Shown: positions 5,313-38,790 of the stretch, one piece after another
Position numbering within the stretch: position 1 is the stretch's first letter
How the letters are laid out: the number at the start of each line of letters is the position of its first letter
The notes under the pieces: generated by a model
What the model saw: the letters and a program-made list of their open reading frames with translations, nothing else
The model's database searches: none
Told to the model about the DNA's origin: nothing
Made by a program: the position numbers and the translations under genes
Assembly: GCF_001605725.1 (NCBI RefSeq)
Contig: NZ_CP011530.1
Coordinates: forward strand, 1,674,001 to 1,738,000
DNA: 64,000 nt
Reading direction: 5' to 3'
Origin: Mycobacteroides immunogenum
GTDB taxonomy: Bacteria > Actinomycetota > Actinomycetes > Mycobacteriales > Mycobacteriaceae

Positions 5313-5373
5313 TCTGGATCTTCCTGTGGTGCTTGGCTCAATGTTGTCGATGATTTCTGGAGTGTCAAAGGGA

Positions 5374-6072
5374 TTAGACGCTTTTGGTCACGCCGTAGTA
5401 GGCAACGATGTCTTCGCTGCCTGAGCCGGAACTAGTCAGGATCGCGTACGAACGAAGAAATGACTGTCCAACACATCCGTCGATCTTTATGTGTATGTCT
5501 TTGATCGTGACACGCGGTTGGGTGCCCTTGAATTTCTTTTTGGTCACCGACACGTTGATGACTTCGCCTGGCTTTGGCCTGATTTCAATGTTGCCCACGA
5601 TGGGAACGCTGATGTTGCCAAGACCGGATGCGCTTATCGAGGAACTGATGCCGATATTGCCGGTCAGGCGGACACCAGACAGTTCGATACCACACCCGAT
5701 CTGATAACCCGCCTCGATGGTTCCGCCCTTGAGAGTTGTGGTCCCGCGGCCCTTCACGCTGCCCATGAATGTGCCGCCGGTTAGGTACTCGCGCGAGGAC
5801 AGAGCAGTCGTCAGTGGCGGAATGGGCAGCTGGGTCTCATCCTCGGCGGCCACTGTCAACTCCCATCCATCGGGAGTCTTGAACCGGGTCGGCGGCTCGG
5901 ACCCGACAATCCCGTTGTCCGGCGGTGGGCCGAGCTCTCCCTCAGCGGGGGGCGGAGGGTTGTTCGCCGCGGCAGGTTCGGGGATCGCGGGGGTGTCGGG
6001 CTCGGCCAACGCCGTCGGAGCCAACCCGGCCAGTACGGCAGCGGCGGTCAGAGCAGCAAAAGCCTTGAACAT
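5374..6072 (-). CDS. MspA-family porin (paralogue 2)
   Basis: 232-residue member of the MspA porin family, which forms octameric water-filled channels in the mycobacterial outer membrane for small polar solutes. There is a signal peptide of 23 residues (ending TALA), a proline-rich spacer to about residue 60, then the family core: LTTALSSREYLTGGTFMG, IEAGYQIGCGI, and a C-terminal GCVGQSFLRSYAILTSS. Unlike M. smegmatis MspA, it has an N-terminal Pro-rich extension and two cysteines that could form a disulfide. GAGAGG lies before the ATG. It follows the other porin gene by 51 bp and precedes the proline-rich exported gene by 61 bp, which suggests one operon. Confidence 0.8.
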   Translation of the reverse strand: MFKAFAALTAAAVLAGLAPTALAEPDTPAIPEPAAANNPPPPAEGELGPPPDNGIVGSEPPTRFKTPDGWELTVAAEDETQLPIPPLTTALSSREYLTGGTFMGSVKGRGTTTLKGGTIEAGYQIGCGIELSGVRLTGNIGISSSISASGLGNISVPIVGNIEIRPKPGEVINVSVTKKKFKGTQPRVTIKDIHIKIDGCVGQSFLRSYAILTSSGSGSEDIVAYYGVTKSV

Positions 6073-6123
6073 CGTTTGACGCCTCTCGAGGTAAGTGGTG
6101 GAGCGACAGAGGATTTGGAGCGC

Positions 6124-6834
6124 TTAGACCGCCTTGGTCATGCCCATGTAGGTGACTACGTCCTGCGTGTCCTCGGTAGCGCTGGTGAATATGGCGTACG
6201 AGCGGATGAAGGATTGCCCCACGCAGCTGTCGATCTTGATGCGGAACCCGGCGATCGTGACTCGCGCGGTAGTTTCCTTGGTAATCGCCATCTTTGAGAT
6301 CGGGATGATGAGCGAGTTGCCCGGCTTGAGGCTCGGACGGACCTGCGCGAAGGCATTGCCTCCGATGCTCGGCACGCCGGCGGGACTGATTTGTGGGGTG
6401 ATACCACCGCCGAATCTCAAATCCACCTCGGCGGCATTGATGCCACAACCGATTTGATATCCGGCCTCAAGAATTCCTTCTGTGAGTTTTGTTGTGCCAG
6501 AACCTTGGACGGTTCCCATGAAGGTGCCGCCAACTATGTACTCGCGGGAGGACAGCGCGGTGGTCAAGGGTGCAACAGGTAGTTGAGTCTCGTCCTTGGC
6601 GGCGACGGCCAGAATCCAGCCCTCCCGAGTCCGCAATGTTCCGGGCTCTGCCGAAGCAACAACGCCGTTGTCCACAGGTGGGGCGGACTCGGGATTGACT
6701 GCAGGTGGGATGGATTCGAGATTGACCGCGGGGTGGTCGGGCAGCGGCTCGCCCCCAGGAGGATCGGCTAGGGCTAGAGGAGTGGCCGCGCCCAGCGTAC
6801 AGGCGGTAGCCAGGGCGACAAGACTTTTCAGCAT
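6124..6834 (-). CDS. MspA-family porin (paralogue 1)
   Basis: 236-residue MspA-type porin, first gene of the minus-strand run. The start is set at 6834, where a clean 23-residue signal peptide begins (MLKSLVALATACTLGAATPL, then ALA) with GAGAGG upstream, the same leader motif as its paralogue. A longer reading to 7200 has no signal peptide and is rejected. Core motifs are LTTALSSREYIVGGTFMG, LEAGYQIGCGI and DSCVGQSFIRSYAIF. An unusual proline-rich segment with repeats (AVNLESIPPAVNPESAPP) separates signal and barrel. The two paralogues look like a tandem duplication. A long inverted repeat at 6906-6933 lies about 70 bp upstream and may control the operon. Confidence 0.82.
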   Translation of the reverse strand: MLKSLVALATACTLGAATPLALADPPGGEPLPDHPAVNLESIPPAVNPESAPPVDNGVVASAEPGTLRTREGWILAVAAKDETQLPVAPLTTALSSREYIVGGTFMGTVQGSGTTKLTEGILEAGYQIGCGINAAEVDLRFGGGITPQISPAGVPSIGGNAFAQVRPSLKPGNSLIIPISKMAITKETTARVTIAGFRIKIDSCVGQSFIRSYAIFTSATEDTQDVVTYMGMTKAV

Positions 6835-6905
6835 GGGCGGCGTTGCCTCTCGTTTGTTGCAGCAAGGATCTACCCCCCGAGATGCGGAACGGTAGGAAAG
6901 CCGGC

Positions 6906-6933
6906 GTATACCCCGTGCGGGTTGGGGGTATAC
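6906..6933. promoter_or_regulatory. Inverted repeat upstream of porin operon
   Basis: GTATACCCC at 6906-6914 and GGGGTATAC at 6925-6933 are perfect 9-bp arms around a 10-base centre. It lies 72-99 bp upstream of the porin start codon on the minus strand, a position suited to an operator. A C-tract and G-tract flanked by TA steps resembles, but does not equal, operators of copper-sensing CsoR/RicR regulators; that link is only an idea. Confidence 0.45.
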
Positions 6934-7343
6934 GTCATATCTAAGAGAGTTAAACGTCTGATAGGTAAACTGGCGGGGGACAAACATTGGATGTTGGGCA
7001 TCTGTTTGATGCGGCGTGGCGTGTCGAGTTCTATTCGGGTAAGGGCAAGGTGTCCGAGGATTCCGTAGCTTGGGGTGTGACGCGGGTGCGCGGTCGCCGC
7101 GATCGGGTGTGTGGTGCCGTCGGATAGCCATCCCAACCACCTTCCGCAGAGCTGCGAAGGCGTCTGTTCCGGCTGCTCGCGGTATCCGAGGGCCATTCAA
7201 AGATCATCGAAAATTGATGTGCTACTGGTGATTAAGGTTCTTCCCATAGCGGACCTCTTGCCTTCTCTGAAATTGTTATCTGAAACCGACGCGCGGTTGG
7301 TTCCGGCCAATGTTCAGGCACGTGCTGACAATGCCCGGTCGGA

Positions 7344-7384
7344 GCTGAGAGCTCGCTGAGACTGGGGGATGAGAACTGGCTGAG
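7344..7384 (-). promoter_or_regulatory. Double tandem CTCAGC-type site
   Basis: Read on the minus strand, 7360-7344 is CTCAGC-GAGCT-CTCAGC (two identical hexamers) and 7384-7368 is CTCAGC-CAGTT-CTCATC. The four half-sites are spaced 11, 13 and 11 bp. The hexamer and period are those of the sites at 1420 and 1923. It lies between the porin operon and the sensor-kinase operon and could serve either. An OmpR-family response regulator is the likely binder. Confidence 0.5.
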
Positions 7385-7609
7385 GACAAGTACCGTGACG
7401 TTCATCGCGCGCGAATCGGAGCCACCCGCGGGTGTGGTCGGGTTTCACTCCTGATCGACTAGATCACGCATTGGTGCGGCGGGTGATCACGGTTGCGCAC
7501 AAGGTCGTGCTGTGGCGTCTCGCCGGCGGTCTGGGGAAGAGGATGTGCGCCAGAGTAAGCGGGCAGAGTTGTTGCCGAAATCGCCTGCAGTCGTGAGAGT
7601 TACGACGAT

Positions 7610-8029
7610 ATGAACCTCGCCCTAGCTCTCTCAACGAAGTCTCAGCATGCGCCAGGCACAGTGTGGGCCGTGCCCAGCGAGAAGCCGAACGATCCCACCC
7701 CACCGTCCACGGAGCCACTGGTCGTATCAGTTCAGGCGCCTACATCAATTCCGGTGACAGACATCCGAGGAACCGTTCCCGCACCATGTGGCGGGAAAGG
7801 CCGCGCCACCCGAGACCGTTTAATGATCGCGGGGGCCACTGCGGCGGCGATCATCGCACCGGGATTGATCTTCGGCGCTGGGGTTTGGGTCGGCACTGAA
7901 CTGGACACAGGGCACGGCCATGTTCAGTCGCGATTCGATGAACGGGTGGACGGCGGCATGCCGGCCGTTGGCGATGCGCCCCTAGTCTGCGGGGACGATG
8001 CCCGCAGTGACGAACATGCTGGCGCATAG
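7610..8029 (+). CDS. Small membrane protein upstream of sensor kinase
   Basis: 139-residue protein I do not recognise. It has a Pro/Thr-rich N-terminal half, one strong membrane helix at about residues 70-96 (MIAGATAAAIIAPGLIFGAG) and a short hydrophilic tail. Its end overlaps the start of the histidine kinase gene by 32 bp in another frame, so the two are translationally linked and the protein may be an accessory to the kinase. The ATG at 7610 has a weak GAG-rich leader; other starts are possible. It occupies the place where a response regulator gene would normally lie. Confidence 0.5.
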   Translation: MNLALALSTKSQHAPGTVWAVPSEKPNDPTPPSTEPLVVSVQAPTSIPVTDIRGTVPAPCGGKGRATRDRLMIAGATAAAIIAPGLIFGAGVWVGTELDTGHGHVQSRFDERVDGGMPAVGDAPLVCGDDARSDEHAGA

Positions 8030-9368
8030 CCGGATTCGCATCGTGTCAGTGGCAGCATGGCGTGCCCTCCGGCGCTGGCGGGGAAGCATCGCTATTCGAT
8101 CGGCGTTCATTTCGGGGATCGCGGTGTTTGCCGGTCTGGTGACCGTCGGTGTGATATCGGTGGCGGCGCTGTACGAGTTGATGATCAAGGATGTCGACCA
8201 CGCTGCCCGGGCGCGGGCGCTGGCCGTGGCTGAGCGCCTGCACAAGGAGCCGCCTGACGAGCTCGAATCAGTTCTGTTGGCAACCGATCAGCGTGTTGTG
8301 GCCGTCCAAGTACTCCGCAGCGATGGCGCGGTGGTGCGCCGTTCGGGATCGGAGGCCAAAGCTCCGCTGACCTCCGACAAAGAGGTACGCGTGAGCACCG
8401 CAACGGTCAGTGGTCGTAGAGGCGGCTACACCGTGCTGGTGGGTGGTGGGATTGAACCTGCCGAGTCGATGGTTTCGTCTGTGGCTGTGATGCTCGCGGT
8501 CACGGCTCCGATCGTGGCCGTGGTGGCTGGCGGGGCTACGTACCTGTTGGTGCGGCGGTCGCTGCGGTCTGTGGATGCGATCCGCTCGCGGGTATCGGCG
8601 ATTAGTGCTTCTGATCTCGCTGAGCGGGTTCCGGTGCCCGGTGGCTCTGACGAGATGGCGGCGTTGGCGGTCACGATGAATGACATGCTGGCGCGGATCC
8701 AGGCCGGCCACACTGCCCAGCAACGCTTTGTCGGCGACGCCTCCCACGAGCTTAGGAGCCCGCTGGCGACTGTGATTTCTGGGTTGGAGATTGCGGCGGC
8801 GCATCCGAAACGCTTCGACACGCAGATGGTGCACTGCACGTTGCTGCCAGAAGCGCGCCGTATGCAGCACTTGGTTGAGGATCTGTTGCTGCTGGCGCGT
8901 GCCGATGAACACGGTTTGCCGATGCGGCGCACGGACGTCGATCTCGATGATTTAGTGTCGGCGGAGGTTCAGCGGCTCAAACAGCACACTGGGCTGAAGG
9001 TTTCGTGCGAGCTAGCCGCTGTGCGGGTGACTGGCGATGCACAGGGTCTTTCGCGGGTGTTGCGTAACCTGGTAGACAATGCGGTCCGACATGCGGCCAA
9101 TGAGGTATTTATCAAGGTGAGTGGCGACGATGCTCACGCCTATCTGCAGGTGCACGACGATGGGCCCGGAATCCCAGAGGCTGACCGCGACAAGGTGTTC
9201 GAACGGTTCGTACGCTTAGACGCCGATCGTTCCCGACACGGCGGCGGCACCGGGCTTGGACTGGCGATCGTTGCTGAGATTGTTGGGGCACATGCTGGAA
9301 CGATCGGTATCGGTGACCGTTGCGGTGGCGGCACAGTCGTCACCGTTCATCTGCCGCATAGCCGGTGA
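7998..9368 (+). CDS. Membrane sensor histidine kinase without adjacent regulator
   Basis: 456-residue two-component sensor kinase. An N-terminal membrane helix (about 36-62), an extracytoplasmic domain (about 63-155) and a second helix (about 158-185) are followed by HAMP and then the kinase core. The H-box DASHELRSPLATV places the phosphorylated His near residue 250. The N-box LVDNAVRHA, G1 DDGPGIP, F-box FERFVRLD and G2 GGGTGLGLAI are all intact, so it should be active. Its architecture suits partners of OmpR-family regulators such as TrcS/PrrB/MprB relatives. No response regulator gene is next to it, which is unusual because mycobacterial kinases normally follow their regulator. Start codons at 7998 and a few codons later are both possible. 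Confidence 0.85.
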   Translation: MPAVTNMLAHSRIRIVSVAAWRALRRWRGSIAIRSAFISGIAVFAGLVTVGVISVAALYELMIKDVDHAARARALAVAERLHKEPPDELESVLLATDQRVVAVQVLRSDGAVVRRSGSEAKAPLTSDKEVRVSTATVSGRRGGYTVLVGGGIEPAESMVSSVAVMLAVTAPIVAVVAGGATYLLVRRSLRSVDAIRSRVSAISASDLAERVPVPGGSDEMAALAVTMNDMLARIQAGHTAQQRFVGDASHELRSPLATVISGLEIAAAHPKRFDTQMVHCTLLPEARRMQHLVEDLLLLARADEHGLPMRRTDVDLDDLVSAEVQRLKQHTGLKVSCELAAVRVTGDAQGLSRVLRNLVDNAVRHAANEVFIKVSGDDAHAYLQVHDDGPGIPEADRDKVFERFVRLDADRSRHGGGTGLGLAIVAEIVGAHAGTIGIGDRCGGGTVVTVHLPHSR

Positions 9369-9486
9369 CTCGGCTCTCGGGAAAGTCGCGAAGCGGAGCG
9401 GCTCGCGGCAACGTCGGGTTCTCGGCAATTGGGCCCGGCGCGGGTCGAGACGGCCCACGCCGCGCTGTTGGACTTGCGGGGCGAGG

Positions 9487-10290
9487 TTAGTCGCCGAGCT
9501 TCTTGTAAAAACTGCCGACGATCGGGGCGACGATGGCGCGCGGTGCATAGCCCGCCGCCACCGACATGGCCTTGGATGTGATGCCGGGGACGACGCGCAT
9601 CTTGTTGCGGTCCAACGCATCCAGTGAGACGCGTGCGGTGTACTCGCCGTTGATCCACAGGAAGTCCGGCACCACCTTGTCCACGATCGATGCCTCGGCG
9701 GGATCGGGTTCGACGGTGCGCACCGGCCCGGGGGCCAACAATGTGACATGCACACCCGTGCCCTTGAGTTCGCCCCGCAGCGACTCGGAGAAGGTGTTCG
9801 CGAAGGCCTTGGTGGCCGCGTAGGTGGCGTTGTTTGGGATCGGGGAGTTGCCGGCCGCCGAACCGGAGATCAGGATGCCGCCGGCGCCGCGTTCCAGCAT
9901 GCCGGGCAGGACCGCAAGCGTAAGGTCATGCACTGCAACGGCATTGAGCTGAACCTGCTTGCGCTCTTCGGCGGGGTCCAGGCCGCGGATCGGCCCGAAT
10001 GTCGCGGTTCCGGCGTTGTTGCACAGGATCGAGATGTTGCGCTCGGAGAGCTCTTTGCACAGCGTGTCGCGCGCACCCGGGTCGGCCAGGTCAACGGCAC
10101 GTACCTCGACGATCACGCCTGTCTTCTCGGTCAGGCTGTTGGCGAGATCGTTGAGAATTTCGCCGCGCCGGGCGGTGATGATGAGGTTGTGTCCGCGGGC
10201 GGCAAGCTCTTCGGCGAGCGACGCCCCGATCCCCTGGGAGGCTCCGGTGACGACGGCGCGGGCATCGGGACTTGGTGCGGGTATCGGCAT
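9487..10290 (-). CDS. cmrA: Mycolate 3-oxo reductase, SDR family
   Basis: 267-residue short-chain dehydrogenase/reductase resembling M. tuberculosis Rv2509 and M. smegmatis MSMEG_4722, which reduce the 3-oxo intermediate in the last step of mycolic acid synthesis before transfer to the cell wall. It shows the cofactor motif TGASQGIG near the N-terminus, CNNAGT, the catalytic Ser (GSAAGNSP) and YAATK. The C-terminal extension NKMRVVPGITSKAMSVAAGY is typical of this subgroup. The neighbouring divergent MFS gene and the membrane protein beyond keep the Rv2509-Rv2508c-Rv2507 order. A minus-strand TACGAT box ends 7 bases before the ATG, so the mRNA is probably leaderless. Confidence 0.8.
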   Translation of the reverse strand: MPIPAPSPDARAVVTGASQGIGASLAEELAARGHNLIITARRGEILNDLANSLTEKTGVIVEVRAVDLADPGARDTLCKELSERNISILCNNAGTATFGPIRGLDPAEERKQVQLNAVAVHDLTLAVLPGMLERGAGGILISGSAAGNSPIPNNATYAATKAFANTFSESLRGELKGTGVHVTLLAPGPVRTVEPDPAEASIVDKVVPDFLWINGEYTARVSLDALDRNKMRVVPGITSKAMSVAAGYAPRAIVAPIVGSFYKKLGD

Positions 10291-10297
10291 GAGGCCA

Positions 10298-10333
10298 ATC
10301 GTAAAGGTTGCCGATTTGGGGCCAGGCTACGCT
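10298..10333. promoter_or_regulatory. Divergent near-leaderless promoters
   Basis: In the 51 bp between cmrA and the MFS gene, a TACGAT -10 box on the minus strand (10303-10298) ends 7 bases from the cmrA ATG. A TACGCT -10 box on the plus strand (10328-10333) ends 8 bases from the MFS ATG. Both match the mycobacterial TANNNT consensus and predict transcripts starting at or next to the start codon. Confidence 0.5.
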
Positions 10334-10341
10334 GGTCGGCA

Positions 10342-11721
10342 ATGAGTATGCCTGGGGTCGAAGAGCCTATGGGGCGTCAAGACCCGGGACCCGGTCGACG
10401 AGTAGACACCCCCACCTCGCGTGGCCGGATAGCCGCGTGGGCGGCGTTCGACTGGGGTTCTGCGGCCTTCAACACCGTCATCGTGATGTTCATCTTCACG
10501 CCATACCTGACCGGCCGCGTCGGTGCGGGCATGCCCGACGGTGTGCCGCAGGGTCTGCTGGGCTGGATGATGGGTCTGGGCGGTGTTCTCGTCTTCCTGT
10601 TGGCGCCGGTGATCGGAGTCTGGGCCGACACTCCGCAGCGGCGCCGCGTTGCGCTGGGCACCCTCACCACGCTGGTGGTGTTGATCGCCACCGCCATGAG
10701 CATGGTTCGTGAGGACAATCGATACCTCTGGTTGGGTCTCGGATTGTATTGCGCGGGTTCGGTGTTCAACGAGCTGGCCCAGGTGCCCTACAACGCGATG
10801 CTCCACGGACTGACCACACCGGCCAACGCTTCCCGGGTTTCGGGGCTGGGCCTGGCGGCCGCGTACATCGGTGGTGTCCTGGTTCTGTTGGTCTGCTACT
10901 TGGGTTTCATCTCCGGCGATGGGCCGACTCGCGGTCTGTTCCATGTGCCCGCCTCCGACGGGTACGACGTGCGGGTGTCGGCCTTGCTGGCGGCCGCCTG
11001 GTTCGCCGTCTTCGCTTTGCCGCTGGTGCTCACCCGGCCGCGGGCAGATCCCGGGGCGCCGCCAGCCAGTTCGCCCGGTGTACTCGGGGTATATCGGGAG
11101 CTGTGGCGGGATCTGGTCGAGCAGTGGCACCTGGATCGACGCATCATCTATTTCCTGGCCGCCAGCGCGATCTTCCGCGACGGAATGGTCGCGATGTTCG
11201 CACTTACCCCCGTGATCGCCAATGGGGTGTTCCACCTGTCCGGCGCCGACATCACGTTGTTCGGCGTGGCCGGGAACGTGATGGCGGCGGTCGGCGCGAT
11301 CGTGGGGGGCCTGTTCGACACCCGGTTGGGTTCCAAGGGAATCATCGTCGGATCACTGGCCGTGATCGTTAGCCTCGGCATCCTGATGATGTTCCTCACG
11401 GGTCAGCCCGCGTTCTGGGTCTGCGGGCTCGCCATCGCGGCCTTCGTCGGTCCGCCGCAGTCGGCGGCGCGCACACTGGTGCTGCGGATGGCGCCGGCGG
11501 GACGAGAGGCCTTCGTCTTCGGCCTCTACACGATGACTGGACGCGCGGTCTCCTTCGTCGGCCCATGGCTGTTCGCCACGTTTGCACTGCTGTTTCATGC
11601 CACCAGGGCGGGCATCGCCGGTCCCGTATTGATGATTGGGCTGGGCATGGTGGCGGTGATCCTTGTCAAGGTTCCGCGCTATGACCCTGCCCGCGCTGGA
11701 ATCGTCAGCGACGCGGGCTAG
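10342..11721 (+). CDS. UMF1/Atg22-like MFS transporter (Rv2508c-like)
   Basis: 459-residue major-facilitator protein with about 12 membrane segments. The opening motif AAWAAFDWGSAAFNTVIVMF is characteristic of the UMF1 group related to Atg22 vacuolar effluxers. The start is placed at 10342, just after a TACGCT promoter box; a reading from 9748 would run backwards through the divergent cmrA gene and is a frame artefact. Substrate is unknown; Atg22 relatives export amino acids, but transfer to this protein is not secure. Its TAG stop overlaps the stop of the convergent membrane protein gene. Gene order matches Rv2508c beside Rv2509. Confidence 0.8.
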   Translation: MSMPGVEEPMGRQDPGPGRRVDTPTSRGRIAAWAAFDWGSAAFNTVIVMFIFTPYLTGRVGAGMPDGVPQGLLGWMMGLGGVLVFLLAPVIGVWADTPQRRRVALGTLTTLVVLIATAMSMVREDNRYLWLGLGLYCAGSVFNELAQVPYNAMLHGLTTPANASRVSGLGLAAAYIGGVLVLLVCYLGFISGDGPTRGLFHVPASDGYDVRVSALLAAAWFAVFALPLVLTRPRADPGAPPASSPGVLGVYRELWRDLVEQWHLDRRIIYFLAASAIFRDGMVAMFALTPVIANGVFHLSGADITLFGVAGNVMAAVGAIVGGLFDTRLGSKGIIVGSLAVIVSLGILMMFLTGQPAFWVCGLAIAAFVGPPQSAARTLVLRMAPAGREAFVFGLYTMTGRAVSFVGPWLFATFALLFHATRAGIAGPVLMIGLGMVAVILVKVPRYDPARAGIVSDAG

Positions 11722-12461
11722 CCCAGGGTGCTGCAGGTCGCCATCTTCCCGGAGGTGGCGCTCTTCTGCGCCCCGTTGACCAGCAGCGTGCAGGACACGT
11801 CGTGCGAGAAATCGGCGGCGATCACCACCGCGTTGGTCACCTGTTCGGTGTTCAGCTTGACCTCTTTGCGCCAGGGCAGCTTGACGTTGAACTCCATTTG
11901 CAGCGAACCGCTGGCATCGAAGTAGGTGACGTTGAGGGCGGGCCCGTGGCCGCCCACCTCATAGACAACGCTCTCCGTCGCGGCCTGGCCGCGTTGCGTG
12001 GGTGGGTTCACCGGGATCGGGGGAATGGTGAAGCTCGGAATCGGCGGGATGGTTGGCCGGCTGGGCGCGGTGGTCGTCGAGGTGCGGGTGGGCGGCGTGG
12101 AAACGACAGTGGGCGGCCGCTCGTCCTCGCGCCGAATCAATACGACCAAGGTGATGATCAGCGCGACGATGACCACCAGCGCGCCGATTCCCACTACCCA
12201 CAACCAGAAGGTGTTCGACCGGCGTGGCGGCTCGGGATCTTTGGGTGGGGGGCCGTACGACGCGTACTGCTGCCCGTACTGCTGCGGCAGCACCGCCGTT
12301 TGGTTCGGCTGGGCGGTGCCGGAGAGCGCGGGATATTCAAATGCCTGTGACGCGTAGGCAGGGTCTTCGGGGTAGTCCAACGGCTGGCTGGACTGCGACC
12401 ACGAACCGTATGACGTGGAGCCGCCCGGGGCGGCCGCGTCGTCGCGGCGGTTGCTGTCCAT
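11718..12461 (-). CDS. Proline-rich membrane protein with MmpS-like domain
   Basis: 247-residue protein, the positional equivalent of Rv2507. Residues 1-80 are cytoplasmic, rich in Pro, Ser, Gln and Tyr; one membrane helix (TFWLWVVGIGALVVIVALII) lies at about 85-105. A Thr/Pro-rich linker follows, and the last 90 residues (ALNVTYFDASGSLQMEF to SGKMATCSTL) resemble the MmpS extracytoplasmic beta-sandwich with two cysteines. MmpS proteins assist MmpL lipid exporters, but there is no mmpL here. The start ATG at 12461 is chosen because the acidic/Arg-rich N-terminus MDSNRRDD is typical; a reading to 12536 adds 25 residues without support. Confidence 0.72.
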   Translation of the reverse strand: MDSNRRDDAAAPGGSTSYGSWSQSSQPLDYPEDPAYASQAFEYPALSGTAQPNQTAVLPQQYGQQYASYGPPPKDPEPPRRSNTFWLWVVGIGALVVIVALIITLVVLIRREDERPPTVVSTPPTRTSTTTAPSRPTIPPIPSFTIPPIPVNPPTQRGQAATESVVYEVGGHGPALNVTYFDASGSLQMEFNVKLPWRKEVKLNTEQVTNAVVIAADFSHDVSCTLLVNGAQKSATSGKMATCSTLG

Positions 12462-12596
12462 GGCCGTCAGGGTACCCGTCAAGCTATCAATGCAGGTGAA
12501 AGCACGTCGGCCGTGTTTTCGGTGGTAAGTCGCCACGCGCGGGTGAATGGTGTCGTTGGGCTGTGATCCCGGTCACCGTACGGCACGATAGGGGCC

Positions 12597-13976
12597 ATGA
12601 CAGTGACCGAATCACCGGCCTCCGAGAGCACACCACCCAAGAAGCACAAGGATCGCACGCATTGGCTGTATATCGCGGTCATTGTCGCGGTGGTGCTCGG
12701 CGTGGCCGTCGGGATGCTGTGGCCCGGGTTCGGAAAGTCGGTGGGAGTGCTGGGCGAGATATTCGTCAGCCTTATCAAGATGATGATCAGCCCGGTCATC
12801 TTCTGCACGATCGTGCTGGGTATCGGATCGGTGCGTAAGGCAGCAAGCGTGGGGCGCGTCGGCGGACTGGCGTTCGTTTATTTCCTGGCAATGTCGACCG
12901 TCGCGTTGGCGATCGGGCTCGTCGTCGGCAATCTGCTCGCCCCCGGCACGGGATTGCACCTTTCCGGGGCGAACCAGGGCGCGGGAGCCAAATATGCGGA
13001 CCAGGCGCACGCTGCCGGCGGAACCTGGCATTTCATCAAATCGATTGTGCCGGAAACCATGTTCTCGGCACTGACATCCGGCAGCGTGCTGCAGACGCTG
13101 TTCATCGCGTTGTTGGTCGGCTTCGCGGTGCAGGCGCTCGGATCGACCGGCGAATCCATCGTCCGCGGTGTCGGGATGCTGCAGAAGTTGGTCTTCAAGG
13201 TCCTCATCATGGTGCTCTGGCTGGCGCCCATCGGCGCCTTCGGCGCTATCGCGAATGTGGTGGGCCAAACCGGGTGGGACGCCGTCAAGGAGCTGGGCAC
13301 CCTGATGCTCGGTTTCTACGTGACCTGTGTGATCTTCATTTTCGGTGTGTTGGGCGCGTTGTTGTGGGCGGTATCGCGGGTGTCTATCTTCAAGCTGGTG
13401 CGCTATCTGGCGCGTGAATACCTGCTGATCGTGTCGACCTCGTCCTCCGAATCGGCGCTGCCACGGCTGATCGCAAAGATGACTCATCTGGGCGTCGACA
13501 AGTCCACGGTGGGAATCGTTGTCCCGACGGGATATTCGTTCAACCTGGACGGCACCGCGATCTATCTGACGATGGCCGCCTTGTTTGTCGCAGATGCCAT
13601 GGGTGCGCCGCTGTCGGTGGGGCAGCAGATTTCACTGTTGGCGTTCATGATGATCGCCTCCAAGGGTGCGGCAGGCGTGACCGGTGCCGGGATGGCCACG
13701 CTGGCGGGCGGATTGCAAAGTCATCGCCCGGATCTGGTTGACGGTGTCGGCATGATCGTCGGCATCGACCGATTCATGTCCGAGGCGCGGGCGCTGACCA
13801 ACTTCTCCGGCAACGCGGTGGCCACGCTCCTCATCGCGACATGGACCAAGACCCTGAATCGCGATCAGATCAAGGCAGTGCTCTCAGGTGCCGATCCGTT
13901 CGATGAAACCACCATGCTCGACGACCACGCCGGTGACACCGCCGAGGAGAAGGTGCCCGCGCAAACGGCCGGTTGA
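12597..13976 (+). CDS. dctA: C4-dicarboxylate:cation symporter
   Basis: 459-residue secondary transporter of the DAACS (glutamate/dicarboxylate) family, taking up succinate, malate, fumarate or related acids with protons or sodium. Hydrophobic segments are spread over the whole length. Family motifs are intact: the serine-rich loop STSSSESALPRL, the transport motif PTGYSFNLDGTAIYLTMAAL, and the C-terminal GIDRFMSEARALTNFSGNAVAT. The N-terminal 22 residues are hydrophilic and start at the ATG at 12597. It stands alone between a divergent membrane protein and a convergent permease. Distinction between DctA and a GltP-like glutamate carrier rests on overall resemblance to actinobacterial DctA. 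Confidence 0.82.
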   Translation: MTVTESPASESTPPKKHKDRTHWLYIAVIVAVVLGVAVGMLWPGFGKSVGVLGEIFVSLIKMMISPVIFCTIVLGIGSVRKAASVGRVGGLAFVYFLAMSTVALAIGLVVGNLLAPGTGLHLSGANQGAGAKYADQAHAAGGTWHFIKSIVPETMFSALTSGSVLQTLFIALLVGFAVQALGSTGESIVRGVGMLQKLVFKVLIMVLWLAPIGAFGAIANVVGQTGWDAVKELGTLMLGFYVTCVIFIFGVLGALLWAVSRVSIFKLVRYLAREYLLIVSTSSSESALPRLIAKMTHLGVDKSTVGIVVPTGYSFNLDGTAIYLTMAALFVADAMGAPLSVGQQISLLAFMMIASKGAAGVTGAGMATLAGGLQSHRPDLVDGVGMIVGIDRFMSEARALTNFSGNAVATLLIATWTKTLNRDQIKAVLSGADPFDETTMLDDHAGDTAEEKVPAQTAG

Positions 13977-13990
13977 TGCCTGCGCGGAAG

Positions 13991-15925
13991 TCAGTTCATC
14001 CGATAGGGGTAGTTCGCGACGATCGCATCGGTGCGGTCAATGAGATTGGCCGTCAACACGATTCCGGTCTGATTGTGCAGGATCTGGTGCCAGCGCCGCT
14101 TGGTCTTGATCTCCGTGATCAGCACGGTCACCTGGCGCCCGTCGCACTGGCGCTTCTTGACGTATTCGACGAGCGGAGTGACCAGCGACCTGTGCTTGGT
14201 GGGCAGCACGATGAGTTCTAGTCCCGGGTTCCATTCGGCCCAGCGCTTGGTTATCGCTTCGGCCTTTTGGTCCGTGCGGCTGATGATGACCGGCACCACC
14301 TCGCCCCCGAGATGCAGCGCCGCCTCCAAGAGCTGGACGGTGCGCTTGTTGATGTCGTCGATCGGCACGATCACCAGTGGCGTCTGATCGGGTGGGTTGG
14401 GGGTGAGGGCAGGCAATTCGTCTAGGGCCAGTTCCCGTTTGACGCCCTGATAGTAGTTCTCGGTGCGTCCGAACAGCAGGATCAACGAGGGGATGATGAG
14501 CAGGAGAACCCAGGCGCCCTCGGTGAACTTGCTGACGAAGAACACCACCATCGCGATGGCCGATAGCGTCGCGCCGAACCCGTTGAGCGCGGCTTTCCAC
14601 TGCCAGCCGGGGGTACGGCAGCCAAACCAGTGCTTGACCAATCCGGTTTGGCTGATGGTGAATCCGATGAAGACGCCGATGGCGAAGAGCGGGAGCAGTC
14701 GATGGGTGTCCGCGTCACTGACGATGAGGATGATCGCGGAGAACAGCGCCAGAGCGACCACACCGTAGCGATAGACCGGCTTCTCGGCCCGCAGACCGAA
14801 CAGATGCGGCATGCGGTCGTCCTTGGCCAGCAGGCTCATCAGCACGGGCAGTCCGCCGAAGCTGGTGTTGGCGGCGAACCCGAGGATCAGGGCCACCGTC
14901 ACGTTGGTGACATAGAACGGCCATCCGGTGCCGAACGCCGCGGCGGACAGCTGCGCGAGAATGGTGACGTCGCCGCGGGGAACCACATGGTGCGCCTTGA
15001 TGAGGACGCTGAGCCCGATCAGCATGACGCCCAGGAGGATTCCGAGGGCCACCTCGGTGTTTTGCGCACGTTTGATGGCGGGGGTTTTGAACGCGGGAAC
15101 GCCGTTGGCGATGGCCTCGACTCCCGTCAGGGACGAGCAGCCGGCCGCGAAGGCCTTGAGAACCAAGATGATTCCCAGCGCGCTCACCGGCTCGACCGGG
15201 CCGAGGTCCTTACCGATGACGGCGACCGGCGTGGAGTGCATCAGCCCGAAGACGATCACCGCGATGATGCAGACGATGAACAAGAGTGTCGGCAGCATCA
15301 ACACCTTGGCGGACTCGCTGATGCCGATCAGGTTGATCACTGTCAGGATCGCCAGCCCTATCAACGTGATGGACAGTAGATGCGGCGCCAGCGAGGGAAA
15401 GGCGCTCGCCAGGCTCGCCGCACCGGCGGCAAGGCTGACCGCGACGGTCAACACGTAGTCGACGACCAAGCTCGCGGCCGCCACCAGGCTGGCGCCCCGG
15501 CCCAGGTCCTTCTTGGCGACCGCGTATGAACCCCCGCCCTCGGGGTGTACCGCGATCACCTGGCGGTAGGAGAACACCAAGACGATCAACAGCACCGTGA
15601 TCGCGATAGCCACCGGGAGGGTGAACGTGATGGCGCCGACGCCGCCCGCGATCAGTGCCAGCACGATGGCCTCGGGGCCGTAGGCGACGGAGGACAGGGC
15701 GTCGAGGGACAGCGCGGCCAGCCCGCCGACAGCGGTCAGCTTGTGCGCGTCGTCCTTGAGAACGCGGCGCAGCCGAGGGTCGGCGACGCGCTGCGGTTTG
15801 GGCTTGACGGGAGGGGCGGACACCACCGGGGGAGGATAGGCACAGATATGGCTGTTTTCGTGGTTCTTTACGGAATCTTGAGGCGCCCCAGAGGGCAGTG
15901 CCGGAGTGGGCGATAGTGGTGTCAA
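13991..15925 (-). CDS. APC-superfamily permease, KimA-like
   Basis: Large APC transporter of up to 644 residues with about 12 membrane segments and a cytoplasmic C-terminal domain of about 130 residues. The opening motif GGLAALSLDALSSVAYGPEA is very like Bacillus KimA (YdaO), a potassium importer, and unlike classical amino-acid permeases. The soluble tail (PLVIVPIDDINKRTVQLLEA, then VLITEIKTKRRWHQILHN) also fits that group, so potassium or a cation is the more likely substrate. The start is uncertain: TTG at 15925, or GTG at 15826 or 15823 in a Pro-rich leader, none with a good ribosome site. I looked for a c-di-AMP riboswitch upstream and saw none. Confidence 0.72.
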   Translation of the reverse strand: MTPLSPTPALPSGAPQDSVKNHENSHICAYPPPVVSAPPVKPKPQRVADPRLRRVLKDDAHKLTAVGGLAALSLDALSSVAYGPEAIVLALIAGGVGAITFTLPVAIAITVLLIVLVFSYRQVIAVHPEGGGSYAVAKKDLGRGASLVAAASLVVDYVLTVAVSLAAGAASLASAFPSLAPHLLSITLIGLAILTVINLIGISESAKVLMLPTLLFIVCIIAVIVFGLMHSTPVAVIGKDLGPVEPVSALGIILVLKAFAAGCSSLTGVEAIANGVPAFKTPAIKRAQNTEVALGILLGVMLIGLSVLIKAHHVVPRGDVTILAQLSAAAFGTGWPFYVTNVTVALILGFAANTSFGGLPVLMSLLAKDDRMPHLFGLRAEKPVYRYGVVALALFSAIILIVSDADTHRLLPLFAIGVFIGFTISQTGLVKHWFGCRTPGWQWKAALNGFGATLSAIAMVVFFVSKFTEGAWVLLLIIPSLILLFGRTENYYQGVKRELALDELPALTPNPPDQTPLVIVPIDDINKRTVQLLEAALHLGGEVVPVIISRTDQKAEAITKRWAEWNPGLELIVLPTKHRSLVTPLVEYVKKRQCDGRQVTVLITEIKTKRRWHQILHNQTGIVLTANLIDRTDAIVANYPYRMN

Positions 15926-32621: not shown

Positions 32622-32676
32622 GGACATGTGAGCCTCGACTGAATGCGCGTGTGGTTCCGTGAATAGCTGATCGGAC

Positions 32677-33738
32677 GTGACGGTAGTGATTACCATCCGA
32701 ACTGACTCAGCTAGACGGGCTAGGGCGGTGCATATCGTGGACGGAGCGTGGCCCGGATCTGTTGGTGTCGATCCCGCCGAGCTCGCGCACATGCATTTCT
32801 TCGCCGACAATTCGGCCGGGTCGCTTGCTCCGCTGGCCGAATTGCTGTCACCTCTGGAGGCAGCTGCCGGGCAGGTACTGATGCGCCAGCGCGAGCCAGC
32901 CGACTGGTTCCTGCTCCTCGGCTCTGGGGGCGGCGAGATCCTTCACGCCGGAGAGGGTGGGGATTCCGTTGTCGCGCATCTGGTGCCCGGCACGGTTGTC
33001 GGTGAGATCGCCCTCCTGCGAGGGACCGCCCGGACGGCGACCGTCGTGGCGACCGAATCGGTGCGGGGCTGGGCCGGTGGTCGCGACGCATTCGCTGCGA
33101 TGCTCGAAATCCCGGGTGTGTCAGAGGCATTGGTGTGGACCGCGCGTCAGCGGTTAGCCACCTTCGTCACGCCCATTGCGGTGCGGCTGCGTGACGGCGC
33201 CGAGTTCTACCTGCGGCCCATCCTTCCCGGCGACAGTCACCGTCTGGCGAGGCTTTCCCCGCGCACCGTGTACCGCCGCTTTATGGGGGTCCCCAGTAAG
33301 CGGATGATCACCTACCTGTTCGAGGTCGACTACCTCGAACATTTCGCGTGGGCCCTCACCGACGGGCCAGGCGGTGTGGACGGTCTCGTTGTCGCTGACG
33401 CTCGATTTATCCGGCACGCCGACGAACCCGACAGTGCCGAGTTGGCATTCACGGTCGGCGATGACTACCAGGGGCGCGGAATCGGCACACTGTTGATGGA
33501 AGCGCTCTCGGTGTCGGCGCATGCCGGCGGTGTACGCCGATTCACGGCCTCGGTGCTCTCCGAGAACTACGCGATGCGCACCATTCTGAATCGATACGGT
33601 GCACGCTGGGAATCGGACGGCCCGGGCGTGGTCACCACGGTCTTCGATGTGCCTCTGGTGGGGGAGTTGAGTCTTTCCCCGCGGGTATCCATACAGGTCG
33701 ACGTTGCCACCCGCCAGATGGTGCAGGCGTTGTGTTGA
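32677..33738 (+). CDS. pat: cAMP-binding protein acetyltransferase
   Basis: Up to 353 residues: an N-terminal cyclic-nucleotide-binding domain (about 40-155, with phosphate-binding motif GEIALLRGTARTATVVATES) joined to a C-terminal GNAT acetyltransferase (about 175-335, with acetyl-CoA loop DDYQGRGIGTLLMEAL). This is the architecture of mycobacterial Pat (Rv0998 / MSMEG_5458), which acetylates lysines of acyl-CoA synthetases and other proteins when cAMP is bound. The GTG start at 32677 is uncertain within about 15 codons. The last 28 codons lie inside the left repeat of the integrated element and are duplicated at 36538-36621. Confidence 0.87.
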   Translation: MTVVITIRTDSARRARAVHIVDGAWPGSVGVDPAELAHMHFFADNSAGSLAPLAELLSPLEAAAGQVLMRQREPADWFLLLGSGGGEILHAGEGGDSVVAHLVPGTVVGEIALLRGTARTATVVATESVRGWAGGRDAFAAMLEIPGVSEALVWTARQRLATFVTPIAVRLRDGAEFYLRPILPGDSHRLARLSPRTVYRRFMGVPSKRMITYLFEVDYLEHFAWALTDGPGGVDGLVVADARFIRHADEPDSAELAFTVGDDYQGRGIGTLLMEALSVSAHAGGVRRFTASVLSENYAMRTILNRYGARWESDGPGVVTTVFDVPLVGELSLSPRVSIQVDVATRQMVQALC

Positions 33739-33789
33739 CGGTCGAAGCAGCGCCCCCGGCAGGAATCGAACCTGCGACCTAGGGATTAG
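33655..33789. repeat. Left 135-bp direct repeat (attL)
   Basis: Identical to 36538-36672 except T at 33705 versus C at 36588. It contains the last 28 codons and stop of pat, a short spacer and the 3'-terminal 39 bases of a tRNA-Arg gene (complement). Identity stops at 33789, which corresponds to the anticodon loop, a usual crossover place for tyrosine integrases. Confidence 0.88.
33751..33789 (-). pseudogene. tRNA-Arg 3' fragment
   Basis: Complement of 33751-33789 equals the 3' half of the tRNA-Arg at 36634-36707 (T arm, variable region, 3' side of the anticodon stem, acceptor 3' strand). The 5' half is missing, so it cannot make a tRNA. It is the footprint of integration. Confidence 0.88.
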
Positions 33790-33938: not shown

Positions 33939-36068
33939 TCAGGAGTCGACCAAACCAGGGGCAGTCCCATCAGTGTCGCTGTTCGAGTCGGTCGGAGCGG
34001 GTTCCACAATCAAGAAGCCCTCGGAGCCCTCAACGGGCGCATCGACGTTGATTTTGACGGGCAGCATCCCTGCAACGATGAAACCGCGTTGTGCCTGAGC
34101 AAGATGTTTACGCGCTGTGCGACCCGTCACCATTGCCGGGTTCACGGCGAGCGCAAGCCGTCGGTTGAATATCCGCCATTCGGACGGGTGAATGCTGAAG
34201 CCTTGTTCGGTGCGTTTGACCCACTCGGGGTCGTTGCGATTTAGCAGTCGCCCAAGGGCGCCGAGTATCTCTAGCGGAACGCCGGACTGTGGTCGTGGGA
34301 CATCCTCATCTGCGATGTAATCGGGCGGTATGGTGAAGTAATCGTTGATGAGATCCGATGTTTTGTCGATCAGCGTGAATCCGCCGGGAATGACGGGCTT
34401 CGACGAGTTGAAGCGATCTTGGCACCAGGCGCCGAGAGCATCAGCTTCCACGATCACTCGGTGGCTGTCGGCTCTCACCATCTCCACCCGCCGTCGGATG
34501 TATGCAAAGAACTCGCTGGGATCTGGGAGTACGTCCGCGATTAGCAAAAGGTCTGCGAGTGTCACTGTCCAAGAGCGATCTTTGAGACTGTCGTTCTGGG
34601 GATGCCCAAGATAAGTATTGAATGGGTCAATCCGATCGAATGTGCAGATGACGGCGAGGTTCAAATCGTCTGTCTGCACAGGTAGTACTCGGCCCTTGCT
34701 GTCATTCAGCGTGGCGCCGGCTCTGATCGCTGCTGCGGTCCGCAGGTTCTGGTCGGCTGCCTTCGTAATCATTTCTTCGGCGTGCTTCTCGACACGCTTA
34801 GGCGCCCCGCGGCGCGCGGCGGCGGTTATGCGCCCGCCTTTGCACTCGACGATGAGATTGGCTCCGGGTAGGCAAACCACGATGTCGGCTTCTGCGTCCG
34901 ACTCCTTGTCGGGGTAGGTCACGTTGACGTGGAGTCGATCCTCACCGAAGACTTCGGCGAGGACGTCAGCAGGGAGCCGCTCAGCTGTTGATTGACGAGC
35001 CTTATCGAACTTCTGGAGGAGCCGCGGGTGTCGCTGACAGGTCTCAAATGCCCAGTCGAATATGCAGTGCACGAAATCGACTGGCCGACACCACATCCAG
35101 TCGCCGCTGGACGTTTGGAGGATGGGATGGTTGCGAACGGAGTTGTCGCTGTGTAGGTCCTGTATCTGCTGCGACCCCAGTGGCGTTGCGAGCGCAGAAA
35201 TGAGGTTCTCGAACGATGCGCTGCCTAGCCCTAGGGCTTCGGCTATGGGGCCGTTGTGATCGGGCGTCACTAGTGGTGCGGCTGCGTCGAGCACAAACAT
35301 CAGGATGTCGGTGAAGAGCCATTGCATCCTTTCGGCGTCGTCGGCTTCACGACTCAGTGGTGCGTGTGATTCCGCGATGTCATGGGACACTGACTCCCAT
35401 ATCGATTGCAGTGCTTGGCTATGCAGATCGGCGAAGCGCACCGCGTCGCTGAGTTGGAAACCTAGAACTTCGTTTGCGGCGATATCGACAAGATCGAATA
35501 CCTGATCGGCGATCCTGCGTAGATGACGTTCGAAACCTGCCATCCGATCAAAGTGTCGCTCAAGTGCGAGAAGATTCATCACACTCTCGACTGGTGATTT
35601 TGGCGGAGTATTGAAGGCATCGCCGAAGTCGATGGAGGCCTGCAGCTCGCCGATCTTGCGCAACTGATTCTCAGCGTCGAGGACGATCTGTGGGTCGAAT
35701 TGAGTTCGTAGCCTTGCGGTAACGTCGGCCTCGGGTTCGCTTGTGATTACTCCGGCGAAGAATTCGAGCAGCGCGTCCGATCCGTGCAGCTGCGCGCCGC
35801 TGAGCACACTGCGGGCGCGGACATCCCACATGTGGAGCGCCCCGTAGAGATGAAGCGGGTCACTCCGCTCGACCATCGATCGCAGTGTGTCGATCTCCGT
35901 ATTTATACGCTTTTTCGCCGATAGTCCCTCTTTGACAATCGAGGTGCGGACAACCTCGATTGAATGCGGGTTCGGAGACTGGCGGAGCTTTTGGAGGGCC
36001 TTGATGGCAGGAGGGGATAAGTACGGCCCGGGCTGCTCGGCGCGTGTTTGGCGCGGACTACTGGGCAT
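33939..36068 (-). CDS. Unnamed 709-aa protein with PD-(D/E)xK nuclease-like core
   Basis: I do not recognise a named family. Residues 1-300 are mostly helical with no motif. Residues about 313-345 hold HPILQTSSGDWMWCRPVDFV and FDWAFE. Residues about 360-445 look like a PD-(D/E)xK nuclease core: a helix with Glu363, then AEADIVVCLPGANLIVECKG with Asp395, Glu408 and Lys410 in the expected D...ExK spacing, and a basic helix (ARRGAPKRVEKHAEEM, then ITKAADQ). The ECK-x-ARRGAP pattern recurs in uncharacterised restriction-like proteins. About 270 residues follow. There is no signal peptide and no membrane helix. Base composition looks less GC-rich than the flanks. As the only intact cargo of an integrated element it is a good candidate for a single-protein defence nuclease. 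The ATG at 36068 lacks a clear ribosome site. Confidence 0.6.
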   Translation of the reverse strand: MPSSPRQTRAEQPGPYLSPPAIKALQKLRQSPNPHSIEVVRTSIVKEGLSAKKRINTEIDTLRSMVERSDPLHLYGALHMWDVRARSVLSGAQLHGSDALLEFFAGVITSEPEADVTARLRTQFDPQIVLDAENQLRKIGELQASIDFGDAFNTPPKSPVESVMNLLALERHFDRMAGFERHLRRIADQVFDLVDIAANEVLGFQLSDAVRFADLHSQALQSIWESVSHDIAESHAPLSREADDAERMQWLFTDILMFVLDAAAPLVTPDHNGPIAEALGLGSASFENLISALATPLGSQQIQDLHSDNSVRNHPILQTSSGDWMWCRPVDFVHCIFDWAFETCQRHPRLLQKFDKARQSTAERLPADVLAEVFGEDRLHVNVTYPDKESDAEADIVVCLPGANLIVECKGGRITAAARRGAPKRVEKHAEEMITKAADQNLRTAAAIRAGATLNDSKGRVLPVQTDDLNLAVICTFDRIDPFNTYLGHPQNDSLKDRSWTVTLADLLLIADVLPDPSEFFAYIRRRVEMVRADSHRVIVEADALGAWCQDRFNSSKPVIPGGFTLIDKTSDLINDYFTIPPDYIADEDVPRPQSGVPLEILGALGRLLNRNDPEWVKRTEQGFSIHPSEWRIFNRRLALAVNPAMVTGRTARKHLAQAQRGFIVAGMLPVKINVDAPVEGSEGFLIVEPAPTDSNSDTDGTAPGLVDS

Positions 36069-36444: not shown

Positions 36445-36621
36445 TTGCTGTCCGCGCGTATCGGCGTCGACCACCTGCGGCACGCCAAAGTGTCGATGAC
36501 CCAGGACCGCTACATGCGCCGTGGCCGGGTCCACAACCTGGTGGGGGAGTTGAGTCTTTCCCCGCGGGTATCCATACAGGTCGACGTCGCCACCCGCCAG
36601 ATGGTGCAGGCGTTGTGTTGA
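36445..36621 (+). pseudogene. Tyrosine integrase C-terminal relic fused to pat tail copy
   Basis: Reading from just after a TAG at 36442, the frame gives VDHLRHAKVSMTQDRYMRRG then RVHNL. This matches the C-terminal end of actinobacterial phage-type tyrosine recombinases, whose pattern is LGHA-x-x-S-x-T-x-x-RY-x-x-RGRVH with the catalytic Tyr. The N-terminal part and the Arg-His-Arg residues are gone. At 36538 the frame runs without a break into the duplicated pat tail (LVGELSLSPRV...) and stops at 36619-36621. It cannot be a working integrase. Confidence 0.72.
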
Positions 36622-36672
36622 CGGTCGAAGCAGCGCCCCCGGCAGGAATCGAACCTGCGACCTAGGGATTAG
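36538..36672. repeat. Right 135-bp direct repeat (attR)
   Basis: Copy of 33655-33789 with one substitution. It carries a duplicate of the last 28 codons of pat (here in frame with the integrase relic) and the 3' half of the intact tRNA-Arg gene. The repeat is longer than a usual tRNA att core because it runs about 95 bp past the tRNA end into protein-coding sequence. Confidence 0.88.
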
Positions 36673-36707
36673 AAGGCCCTTGCTCTATCCGACTGAGCTA
36701 CGGAGGC
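36634..36707 (-). tRNA. tRNA-Arg (TCT)
   Basis: 74-base cloverleaf on the minus strand: acceptor GCCTCCG/CGGGGGC with one G-T pair, D arm GCTCAGTCGGATAGAGC, anticodon loop CTTCTAA (anticodon TCT) and T arm GCAGGTTCGAATCCTGC. CCA is not encoded. The anticodon stem AGGGC/TCCCT leaves a C31-T39 mismatch next to the loop; the integration junction falls between positions 34 and 35. It is the intact target gene of the integrated element. Confidence 0.9.
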
Positions 36708-36768
36708 ATGTGGCGCTAGCCGGATGGGAGTCTATCGAACCGGTGGCGGTGTGGATCGCATCTCGCCA

Positions 36769-36774
36769 TACCCT
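36769..36774 (+). promoter_or_regulatory. Leaderless -10 box of CopD-CtaG gene
   Basis: TACCCT followed by exactly six bases and the GTG at 36781. It matches the TANNNT consensus and supports both this start codon and a leaderless transcript. Confidence 0.5.
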
Positions 36775-36780
36775 TGACTG

Positions 36781-38790
36781 GTGACGACCACTCCCACCGC
36801 CAGGAAGACCGATTCGCCGATATGGACGATCGTCGTCGGTCTTGCGGTACTGGCGGGCCTGGTCGCAGCCACTATCGGTGCTCTGTCATTGACCGATGCG
36901 CTGATCGCGACCGGTCTGCCCAACCCCGGCCCCGTCACCTCCTACGGTTTGCCGTTCGTGCGAGCGGCCGCCGAAATCGCCGCCGTTGTCGCCGTCGGCG
37001 CGTTCCTGCTCGCGGCCTTCCTCGTCCCCCCGCAATCCAGTGGAGTGCTCGATGTCGACGGGTACCGCTCGCTGCGCGTTGGTACGGCGGCATCGGTCGC
37101 ACTGGCGGTGCTCTCGGCGGCCATGGTGCCGCTGTCGGTGTCCGATGTGTCTGGTCAGCCGGTGAGCGATTTCGGTCCCGGAGAGCTGTGGACACTGGCA
37201 GGCGAGATCGAAACGGTGAATGCCTGGCGCTGGATGGCCTTCATCGCGGCGGGCGTTGCGATCGCCAGCCGGGTGGTGCTGCGCTGGTCGTGGACGCCGG
37301 TGCTGGTGCTCGGATCGATCGCCACGTTGATGCCGCTGGCCTTGGTGGGGCATTCGGCCACGGGTGGCGCGCACGACCTGGGTACCAACAGCCTCATCAT
37401 CCATTTGGTGTCCGCGGCGCTGTGGGCGGGCGGGCTGGTCTCGCTGCTCATACATGCGCTGCGCGGTGGCGGCCACCTCGACGTGGCCGCGCGTCGGTTC
37501 TCCACCGTGGCGCTGTGGTGCTACATCGCGATCGGCCTCAGCGGAATCATCAACGCCCTTATCCGAGTGCAGCTTTCCGACCTGTTCACCACCCGCTACG
37601 GCTGGCTGCTGGTGGGCAAGGCCACCGCGCTGCTGCTCTTGGGCGTGCTGGGCTATCTGCAACGACGTTCGGCGATAACGGCATTGAACAAGGACCCGGA
37701 TAACCGCCGACCGCTGATTCGGCTGGCCGGGGTGGAAGCCGTCATCTTCGCGATCACCTTCGGCATCGCCGTCGGACTGGGCCGTACTCCGCCTCCGCCG
37801 CCGGTCAACCTCAACCCGTCTCCAGTCGAGGTCGCCATCGGCTACAACCTGGACGGTCCGCCGACTCCGGGGCGGCTGATGTTCGATTGGCGCTTCGATC
37901 TGATCTTCGGAACGGCCGCCATTGTTTTCGCTGTCGCCTACGTGGTCGGTGTCCGCAGGCTCAAGCAGCGCGGCGACGAATGGCCGGTCGGCCGCACCAT
38001 CTCTTGGTTGTCCGGCTGCGGATTCTTGCTGATCGCTACGTCATCGGGCGTCGGACGGTACATGCCCGCGATGTTCAGCATGCACATGGTCGCGCACATG
38101 ATGCTCTCGATGCTGGTACCCGTGCTGCTGGTGCTGGGTGGTCCCGTCACCCTGCTGCTGCGGGTGCTGCCCGCGGCGGGTAAGGGCGATCCGCCTGGCC
38201 TGCGTGAATGGGTCCAATTGGCGTTGCACAGCAAGTTCTCTCGCTTCCTGACGCATCCGCTGGTGGCGACGTCGCTGTTCATCGGCGGCTTCTATGGCCT
38301 GTACCTGAGCGGGCTCTACGACGCCGCCGTCGACGTGCACGCCGCGCACCTGGCGATGAATCTGCATTTCTTGCTCAGCGGGTACCTCTTCTACTGGGTG
38401 GTCATAGGCATCGATCCCTCTCCACGGCGCCTACCGCCCGTCGCGAAATTGGGCATCGTGCTGGTCTCGCTGCCGCTGCACGCCTTCTTCGGAGTCATCC
38501 TGATGGGGACGAAATCGATTCTCGGCGAGAAGTTTTACAGCAACCTCGCGTTGCCGTGGCGGATAGATCTGGCCGCCGATCAACACATGGGTGGCGCCAT
38601 CACCTGGGCGACGGGAGAGCTGCCACTGATGGTGGTGATGATCGCCCTGGTCGTGCAGTGGTCACGCTCAGACGAAAGGCTGGCTCGCCGGCAGGACCGC
38701 GCCGCCGACCGCGATGACGACGCAGACCTGGCCGCCTACAACGCCATGCTTGCGAAAATGGCCCAGCACGACGAGAAAACCCGCGGTTAG
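36781..38790 (+). CDS. CopD-CtaG fusion membrane protein
   Basis: 669-residue integral membrane protein with two fused halves, like Rv0102. The N-terminal half (to about residue 340) is CopD-like, a copper-resistance or copper-import membrane domain with HSATGGAHDLGTNSLIIHLV. The C-terminal half is a caa3-type CtaG domain (cytochrome oxidase copper assembly) with FSMHMVAHMMLSMLVPVLLV and the His-rich VHAAHLAMNLHFLLSGYLFY. Conserved His and Met residues in the membrane suit Cu(I) handling for cytochrome c oxidase. The tail is charged. The stop overlaps the stop of the convergent amidase by 4 bp. Confidence 0.85.
   Translation: MTTTPTARKTDSPIWTIVVGLAVLAGLVAATIGALSLTDALIATGLPNPGPVTSYGLPFVRAAAEIAAVVAVGAFLLAAFLVPPQSSGVLDVDGYRSLRVGTAASVALAVLSAAMVPLSVSDVSGQPVSDFGPGELWTLAGEIETVNAWRWMAFIAAGVAIASRVVLRWSWTPVLVLGSIATLMPLALVGHSATGGAHDLGTNSLIIHLVSAALWAGGLVSLLIHALRGGGHLDVAARRFSTVALWCYIAIGLSGIINALIRVQLSDLFTTRYGWLLVGKATALLLLGVLGYLQRRSAITALNKDPDNRRPLIRLAGVEAVIFAITFGIAVGLGRTPPPPPVNLNPSPVEVAIGYNLDGPPTPGRLMFDWRFDLIFGTAAIVFAVAYVVGVRRLKQRGDEWPVGRTISWLSGCGFLLIATSSGVGRYMPAMFSMHMVAHMMLSMLVPVLLVLGGPVTLLLRVLPAAGKGDPPGLREWVQLALHSKFSRFLTHPLVATSLFIGGFYGLYLSGLYDAAVDVHAAHLAMNLHFLLSGYLFYWVVIGIDPSPRRLPPVAKLGIVLVSLPLHAFFGVILMGTKSILGEKFYSNLALPWRIDLAADQHMGGAITWATGELPLMVVMIALVVQWSRSDERLARRQDRAADRDDDADLAAYNAMLAKMAQHDEKTRG

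Follow-up and report, generated by a model that had tools for sequence, protein, structure and literature searches.

The window analysed here is a stretch of 64,000 nucleotides from Mycobacteroides immunogenum (contig NZ_CP011530.1, positions 1,674,001 to 1,738,000 of the forward strand). On its reverse strand lies a 709-codon gene (33939..36068), which, on balance, is read here as encoding a compact, Upx-like, single-chain defence nuclease. The gene probably constitutes a small antiviral defence on its own, one not yet catalogued, because the predicted shape of its product is closest to Upx, which is listed among antiviral defences. The product was shown by computation to be a predicted nuclease with intact and conserved catalytic residues; its modelled PD-(D/E)xK fold is well supported, and its likeness to Upx is moderate. 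The gene is carried by a mobile element that has decayed and sits at a contested tRNA site.

Nuclease domain and N-terminal fold

The gene was delimited by open reading frame (ORF) calling and homologue alignment. Its frame is unbroken over 709 codons, in agreement with the preliminary description of this DNA, and it is present once in the 5.57-Mb single-contig genome. The product comprises a helical N-terminal part, a PD-(D/E)xK nuclease domain, and a C-terminal part (all positions within the gene are given for the reverse strand). When the window protein and 14 relatives were aligned, 37 columns were invariant. The residues identical in 15/15 sequences included Asp395 (codon 34884..34886), Glu408 (34845..34847), Lys410 (34839..34841), and Glu363 in the helix ahead of the core (34980..34982), as well as Arg358, Gly411, Gly412, Arg419, Arg420, Ala422, Gln440, and Arg443.

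The AlphaFold model of the protein (mean predicted local distance difference test score 82.3, predicted template modelling score 0.82) placed the core at residues 348–476 (34641..35027) in the order helix 348–374, strands 379–385, 392–400, and 403–410, helix 423–449, and strand 469–476. According to the model, the alignment, and the fold search, Asp395...Glu408-x-Lys410 lie on adjacent strands of an alpha-beta-beta-beta-alpha-beta core, the arrangement that defines the PD-(D/E)xK superfamily. The loop 3′ of the catalytic strand (residues 411–423, GGRITAAARRGAP, 34800..34838) was delimited from the alignment and the model, and model confidence is low within it, at residues 417–423. The Pfam nuclease-related domain NERD (PF08378) matched 11/15 aligned sequences at E ≤ 1 (best 1.5e-4); the window protein itself scored E 0.032 and 15.2 bits, under the curated Pfam cut-off of 22.1 bits. 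Among nuclease structures, the domain superposed best on BspD6I-type cleavage domains. The preliminary description had assigned Asp395, Glu408, Lys410, and a preceding Glu helix to this fold and had named structure prediction as a check. The invariance, the NERD matches, and the model bear the assignment out. The D-x(10–15)-E-x-K pattern occurs once in the window protein and was rejected as evidence by itself, being at chance level in shuffled sequences (mean 0.60 in 2000 shuffles). Since the bare motif turned up in 40% of the shuffles, the nuclease assignment is carried by conservation and fold.

Apart from NERD, the domain profile search matched no domain in the window protein, including CARF or any other sensor. 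Sequence searches of the Protein Data Bank (PDB) with the window protein and with the three related groups described below (A1, A2, and A3) gave nothing better than E 0.04, and the viral fold library gave no match at E ≤ 0.001.

For the helical N-terminal part (residues 20–345, 35034..36011), the best fold match was the corresponding region of Upx (PDB 9wuf). The whole-model alignment with 9wuf extended to model residue 504 and Upx residue 1266, and that of the N-terminal part alone stopped at Upx 1107; the alignments began at Upx 525 or 735. A helical region followed by a PD-(D/E)xK domain is thus an order common to both proteins as judged by alignment end points only, from which the Upx nuclease was placed, the coordinates of the 9wuf catalytic residues lying outside the comparison. 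As far as the fold can say, the window protein may work like Upx. Both parts flanking the nuclease had been described as unrecognisable; this does not hold for the N-terminal part, which is recognisable as Upx-like, and the window protein is therefore no isolated unknown. The C-terminal part (residues 480–709, 33942..34631) carries a conserved EADALGAW...TS...NDYF signature, seen in the alignment and by hhalign with A2 and A3; it matched no known fold in the fold search, which barely covered residues 530–709.

Upx is reportedly the defence protein that Gao et al. 2020 described as "uncharacterized PD-(D/E)-XK". A literature search for Upx returned no paper on the 9wuf structure among the matches listed. 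In the passages available from two papers, Upx is placed among nucleic-acid-degrading systems (PMC10855318) and described as nearly confined to one hotspot of a Pseudomonas island (PMC12629846). The "upx" that appears in part of PMC12691588 refers to capsule loci and is unrelated to the defence protein.

A decayed element at a tRNA-Arg gene

The gene lies between two copies of a 135-bp direct repeat, which stand 2883 bp apart and mark the left (33655..33789, forward strand) and right (36538..36672, forward strand, one mismatch) ends of an insertion. The right copy overlaps the integration site, a tRNA-Arg gene with anticodon TCT (36633..36707, reverse strand, detected with ARAGORN), and the last 40 bp of the left copy are the 3′ part of that gene. 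No other ORF in the 2883-bp insertion exceeds 115 codons. At 36448..36552 (forward strand) lies what remains of a tyrosine integrase, part of its C-terminal end with the QDRYM tyrosine. This 35-residue remnant is 68.6% identical (E 1.4e-11) to the 389-residue integrase that G088, a related genome, has at this tRNA; the match reaches into the right repeat copy by 15 bp, and the remainder of the integrase is missing. In another relative (G620), window positions 32655–33789 and 36540–37197 align to one continuous stretch (L061), overlapping in the repeat, as at an empty site. The marks of an integrative element (direct repeats, a tRNA target, and a relative with the site empty) are all present here, and the view that the gene is mobile-element cargo is upheld.

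The empty site was seen in one of the eight relatives compared. For the other seven, the G671 stretch had only 845 bases, the left flank was not found within about 7 kb in G555, G572, G092, G088, and G681, and in G050 the left-flank gene and tRNA-Arg are separated by about 3.1 kb. The tRNA-Arg gene edges another element in G092 (42-bp repeat, 3645 bp apart), and it is the end point of an element encoding a 389-residue tyrosine integrase in both G572 and G088. Other genes, one of them resolvase-like, lie beside it in G555. The tRNA-Arg(TCT) gene is thus an integration hotspot, empty in G620 and occupied differently among relatives. The 135-bp repeat takes in the end of the upstream gene; the tRNA core common to other elements is only 40–45 bp.

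The GC content of the gene is 58.3% and its GC at third codon positions (GC3) is 0.66 vs 0.82–0.84 in three neighbouring genes; because of this lower GC3, the gene looks imported. Compared with its Mycobacterium colombiense relative (694 codons, protein identity 61%), differences at the three codon positions were 0.288, 0.219, and 0.650. As they are concentrated at third positions, the gene is under purifying constraint; selection was judged by codon-position differences only, because synonymous divergence was saturated.

Relatives and their gene neighbourhoods

In the protein database, confined to lengths of 0.55–1.75 × the query (about 390–1240 residues; 7996 candidates scored), 15 proteins of 645–726 residues matched the window protein. 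One of these (P0002), 100% identical over 91%, seems to be the same protein with a later start. The best-matching named relatives came from Mycolicibacterium fortuitum and M. colombiense. The window protein and its relatives were designated group A1. Two further groups resemble A1 over most of the chain. Aligned to A1 by hhalign, A2 (17 sequences) gave E 3.3e-80 across 608 columns, and A3 (6 sequences, 758–829 residues long) gave E 3.4e-28 across 556 columns. The A2 consensus carries EAKAG...ARRGA, and the corresponding stretch is less conserved in A3. Lengths in the three groups are mostly about 645–850 residues.

The distribution of relatives is sporadic. With the own genome included, A1 searches gave matches in 8/98 genomes of the genus and 10/401 of the taxonomic family (E ≤ 0.001, weak matches counted); under the stricter limit of E ≤ 1e-20, 6/396 genomes across the phylum matched. 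Among genome contigs, 7 loci were confirmed from 124 pattern matches, and 11 of 72,556 plasmid records matched, 4 of these covering 80% or more of the query. Carriage of the family by phages was rejected: a search of 50,697 phage records gave no relative, and neither did pattern scans of viral contigs with A1 and A3. In two genomes, the relative is divided over two frames (G045, L028 8313–10341; G251, L031 8460–10516), and these may be pseudogenes. Streptomyces relatives among the plasmid matches (H6, H7, H9, and H10) are annotated as "preprotein translocase subunit SecA", probably a misannotation.

Several relatives adjoin or lie near defence genes: AbiEii and AbiEi adjoin the one in G083, a type I methylase with weak PD-T4-5 and PDC-M41A matches is near that of G045, a type II methylase and an integrase-like gene are near that of G251, and a type I methylase adjoins that of L008. 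The G395 relative is adjoined by a NACHT-domain protein without a PADLOC match, and that of M. colombiense (L002) by a phage integrase and an AAA protein. In 13 neighbour loci (5 A1-like and 8 with more distant relatives), 135 neighbour ORFs matched 172 PADLOC models at E ≤ 1e-10; the best 25 of these included HmaA, HmaB, HmaC, type I and II restriction-modification, AbiEii, PDC-M, and helicase models of other systems. In 11 control regions, taken at arbitrary positions on the same contigs, 130 ORFs matched 45 models; the best 25 of these included PD-T4-6, mad6, mad3, C3a189, and MkoA (3 proteins each), which we read as ordinary protein kinases. The count of 172 vs 45 models is no test, because one protein can match many models. 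ORF calling followed a simple GC rule, and the scan covered 135/140 case and 130/170 control ORFs; it omitted L040/G010 and its pair L094, two controls (L092 and L093), and six more control ORFs from region ends.

Over 16 loci (826 ORFs), no neighbour family recurred in more than 3, which agrees with the earlier statement that there is no partner gene. The sole family present in 3/16 reads as a chromosomal monooxygenase, and a type I methylase occurred in 2/16. In G449 (L039 8002–10500), a helicase and a DUF1156-type methylase piece flank a distant relative; the locus reads as Hma, and by our reading the Hma genes of the neighbour scan are those of this locus. The L040/G010 match (E 7.8e-6) reads as a protein combining NERD and a helicase rather than as a full relative; it lies within a cluster of large proteins reading as DISARM-like (4634–15795).

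Proposed role, alternatives, and comparison with known systems

In the proposed mechanism, the N-terminal helical region would act as the sensor, responding to some feature of infection or of the invading DNA. The nuclease domain would then cleave DNA using metal ions bound by Asp395, Glu408, and Lys410. Glu363 and Gln440 could assist the metal-dependent cleavage, and the conserved ARRGAP loop beside the active site may contact the substrate or gate the site. The outcome would be loss of invader DNA, or of host DNA with abortive infection; the computed evidence fits both.

Three points weigh against a compact Upx-like defence nuclease. The window protein has no counterpart of the large early part of Upx, and the caution due to helical models applies to the Upx fold match and lowers confidence in it. 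The proposal that homologues would be found in defence islands stood in part: some relatives are near defence genes, as compared with the control regions, and several, such as those at some plasmid loci, have no evident defence gene nearby. It is unlikely that the gene serves its element instead of the host, by cutting rival plasmids or elements on their arrival at this tRNA site or by aiding element persistence. Its position as the sole sizeable ORF of the element, the different elements occupying the tRNA-Arg site in relatives, and the plasmid location of some relatives would fit such service; however, the integrase has decayed to a remnant, yet the 709-codon gene is intact, and host-type defence genes adjoin some relatives.

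PD-(D/E)xK domains serve many non-defence roles, and ordinary genes surround some relatives (L034 by reading, H1 by annotation), as would be expected if the gene were a passenger without a defence role, its nuclease serving to repair or process nucleic acids. Such a passenger is improbable given the sporadic distribution, the mobile context, and the defence neighbours. Least probable, by a little, is a strict Upx family member that happens to be truncated. Upx is the best fold match over the N-terminal part and the nuclease; however, the short form looks normal, because the 15 database proteins found span 645–726 residues, in a search whose length limits meant that an Upx-length relative could not appear. 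A PADLOC match to a named Upx model was also lacking: the window protein and its relatives were unmatched, except for CARF_PDDEXK in one A2 member, and an Upx model was not identified among those of PADLOC. As the long early part is lacking and no sequence-profile match was obtained, the window protein was not classed as an Upx member.

More tentatively, and with somewhat less than even confidence, A1, A2, and A3 may belong to one large, so far uncatalogued class of defence nucleases made of a single protein, with a helical sensor and nuclease core common with Upx. A1 and A2 would share the signature E-(C/A)-K-x-G...ARRGA by the active site, weaker in A3; the window gene would be a compact form, and one group would have been built into other systems, such as the Hma-like locus of G449.

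If the compact defence nuclease is real, Upx would be linked to a compact, sporadic family, here mainly actinobacterial, that PADLOC profiles miss, and a protein of 709 residues would let sensing and cutting be examined apart. Its location at a contested mycobacterial tRNA site would also be relevant to how susceptible mycobacteria are to phages, and phage therapy is being attempted in this group.

Among known systems, restriction-modification requires a cognate methyltransferase, and the insertion holds no second ORF over 115 codons. Nt.BspD6I/R.BspD6I2 and FokI share about 6–11% identity with the window protein, in which no site-recognition domain was identified and whose element has no methylase. 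The defence nucleases Card1, Can2, Cdn1, and SduA differ in that the window protein has no matched CARF or other sensor domain. NERD is given for Mokosh type I and Nhi-like systems in the part of PMC10952713 available. The profile is thus common to these systems and most of the aligned sequences, but the window protein falls under the NERD cut-off and has neither another matched domain nor a recurring second gene. The closest in shape is Upx, which aligns structurally with the window protein at 14–15% identity and whose chain is numbered to at least 1266, against 709 residues here.
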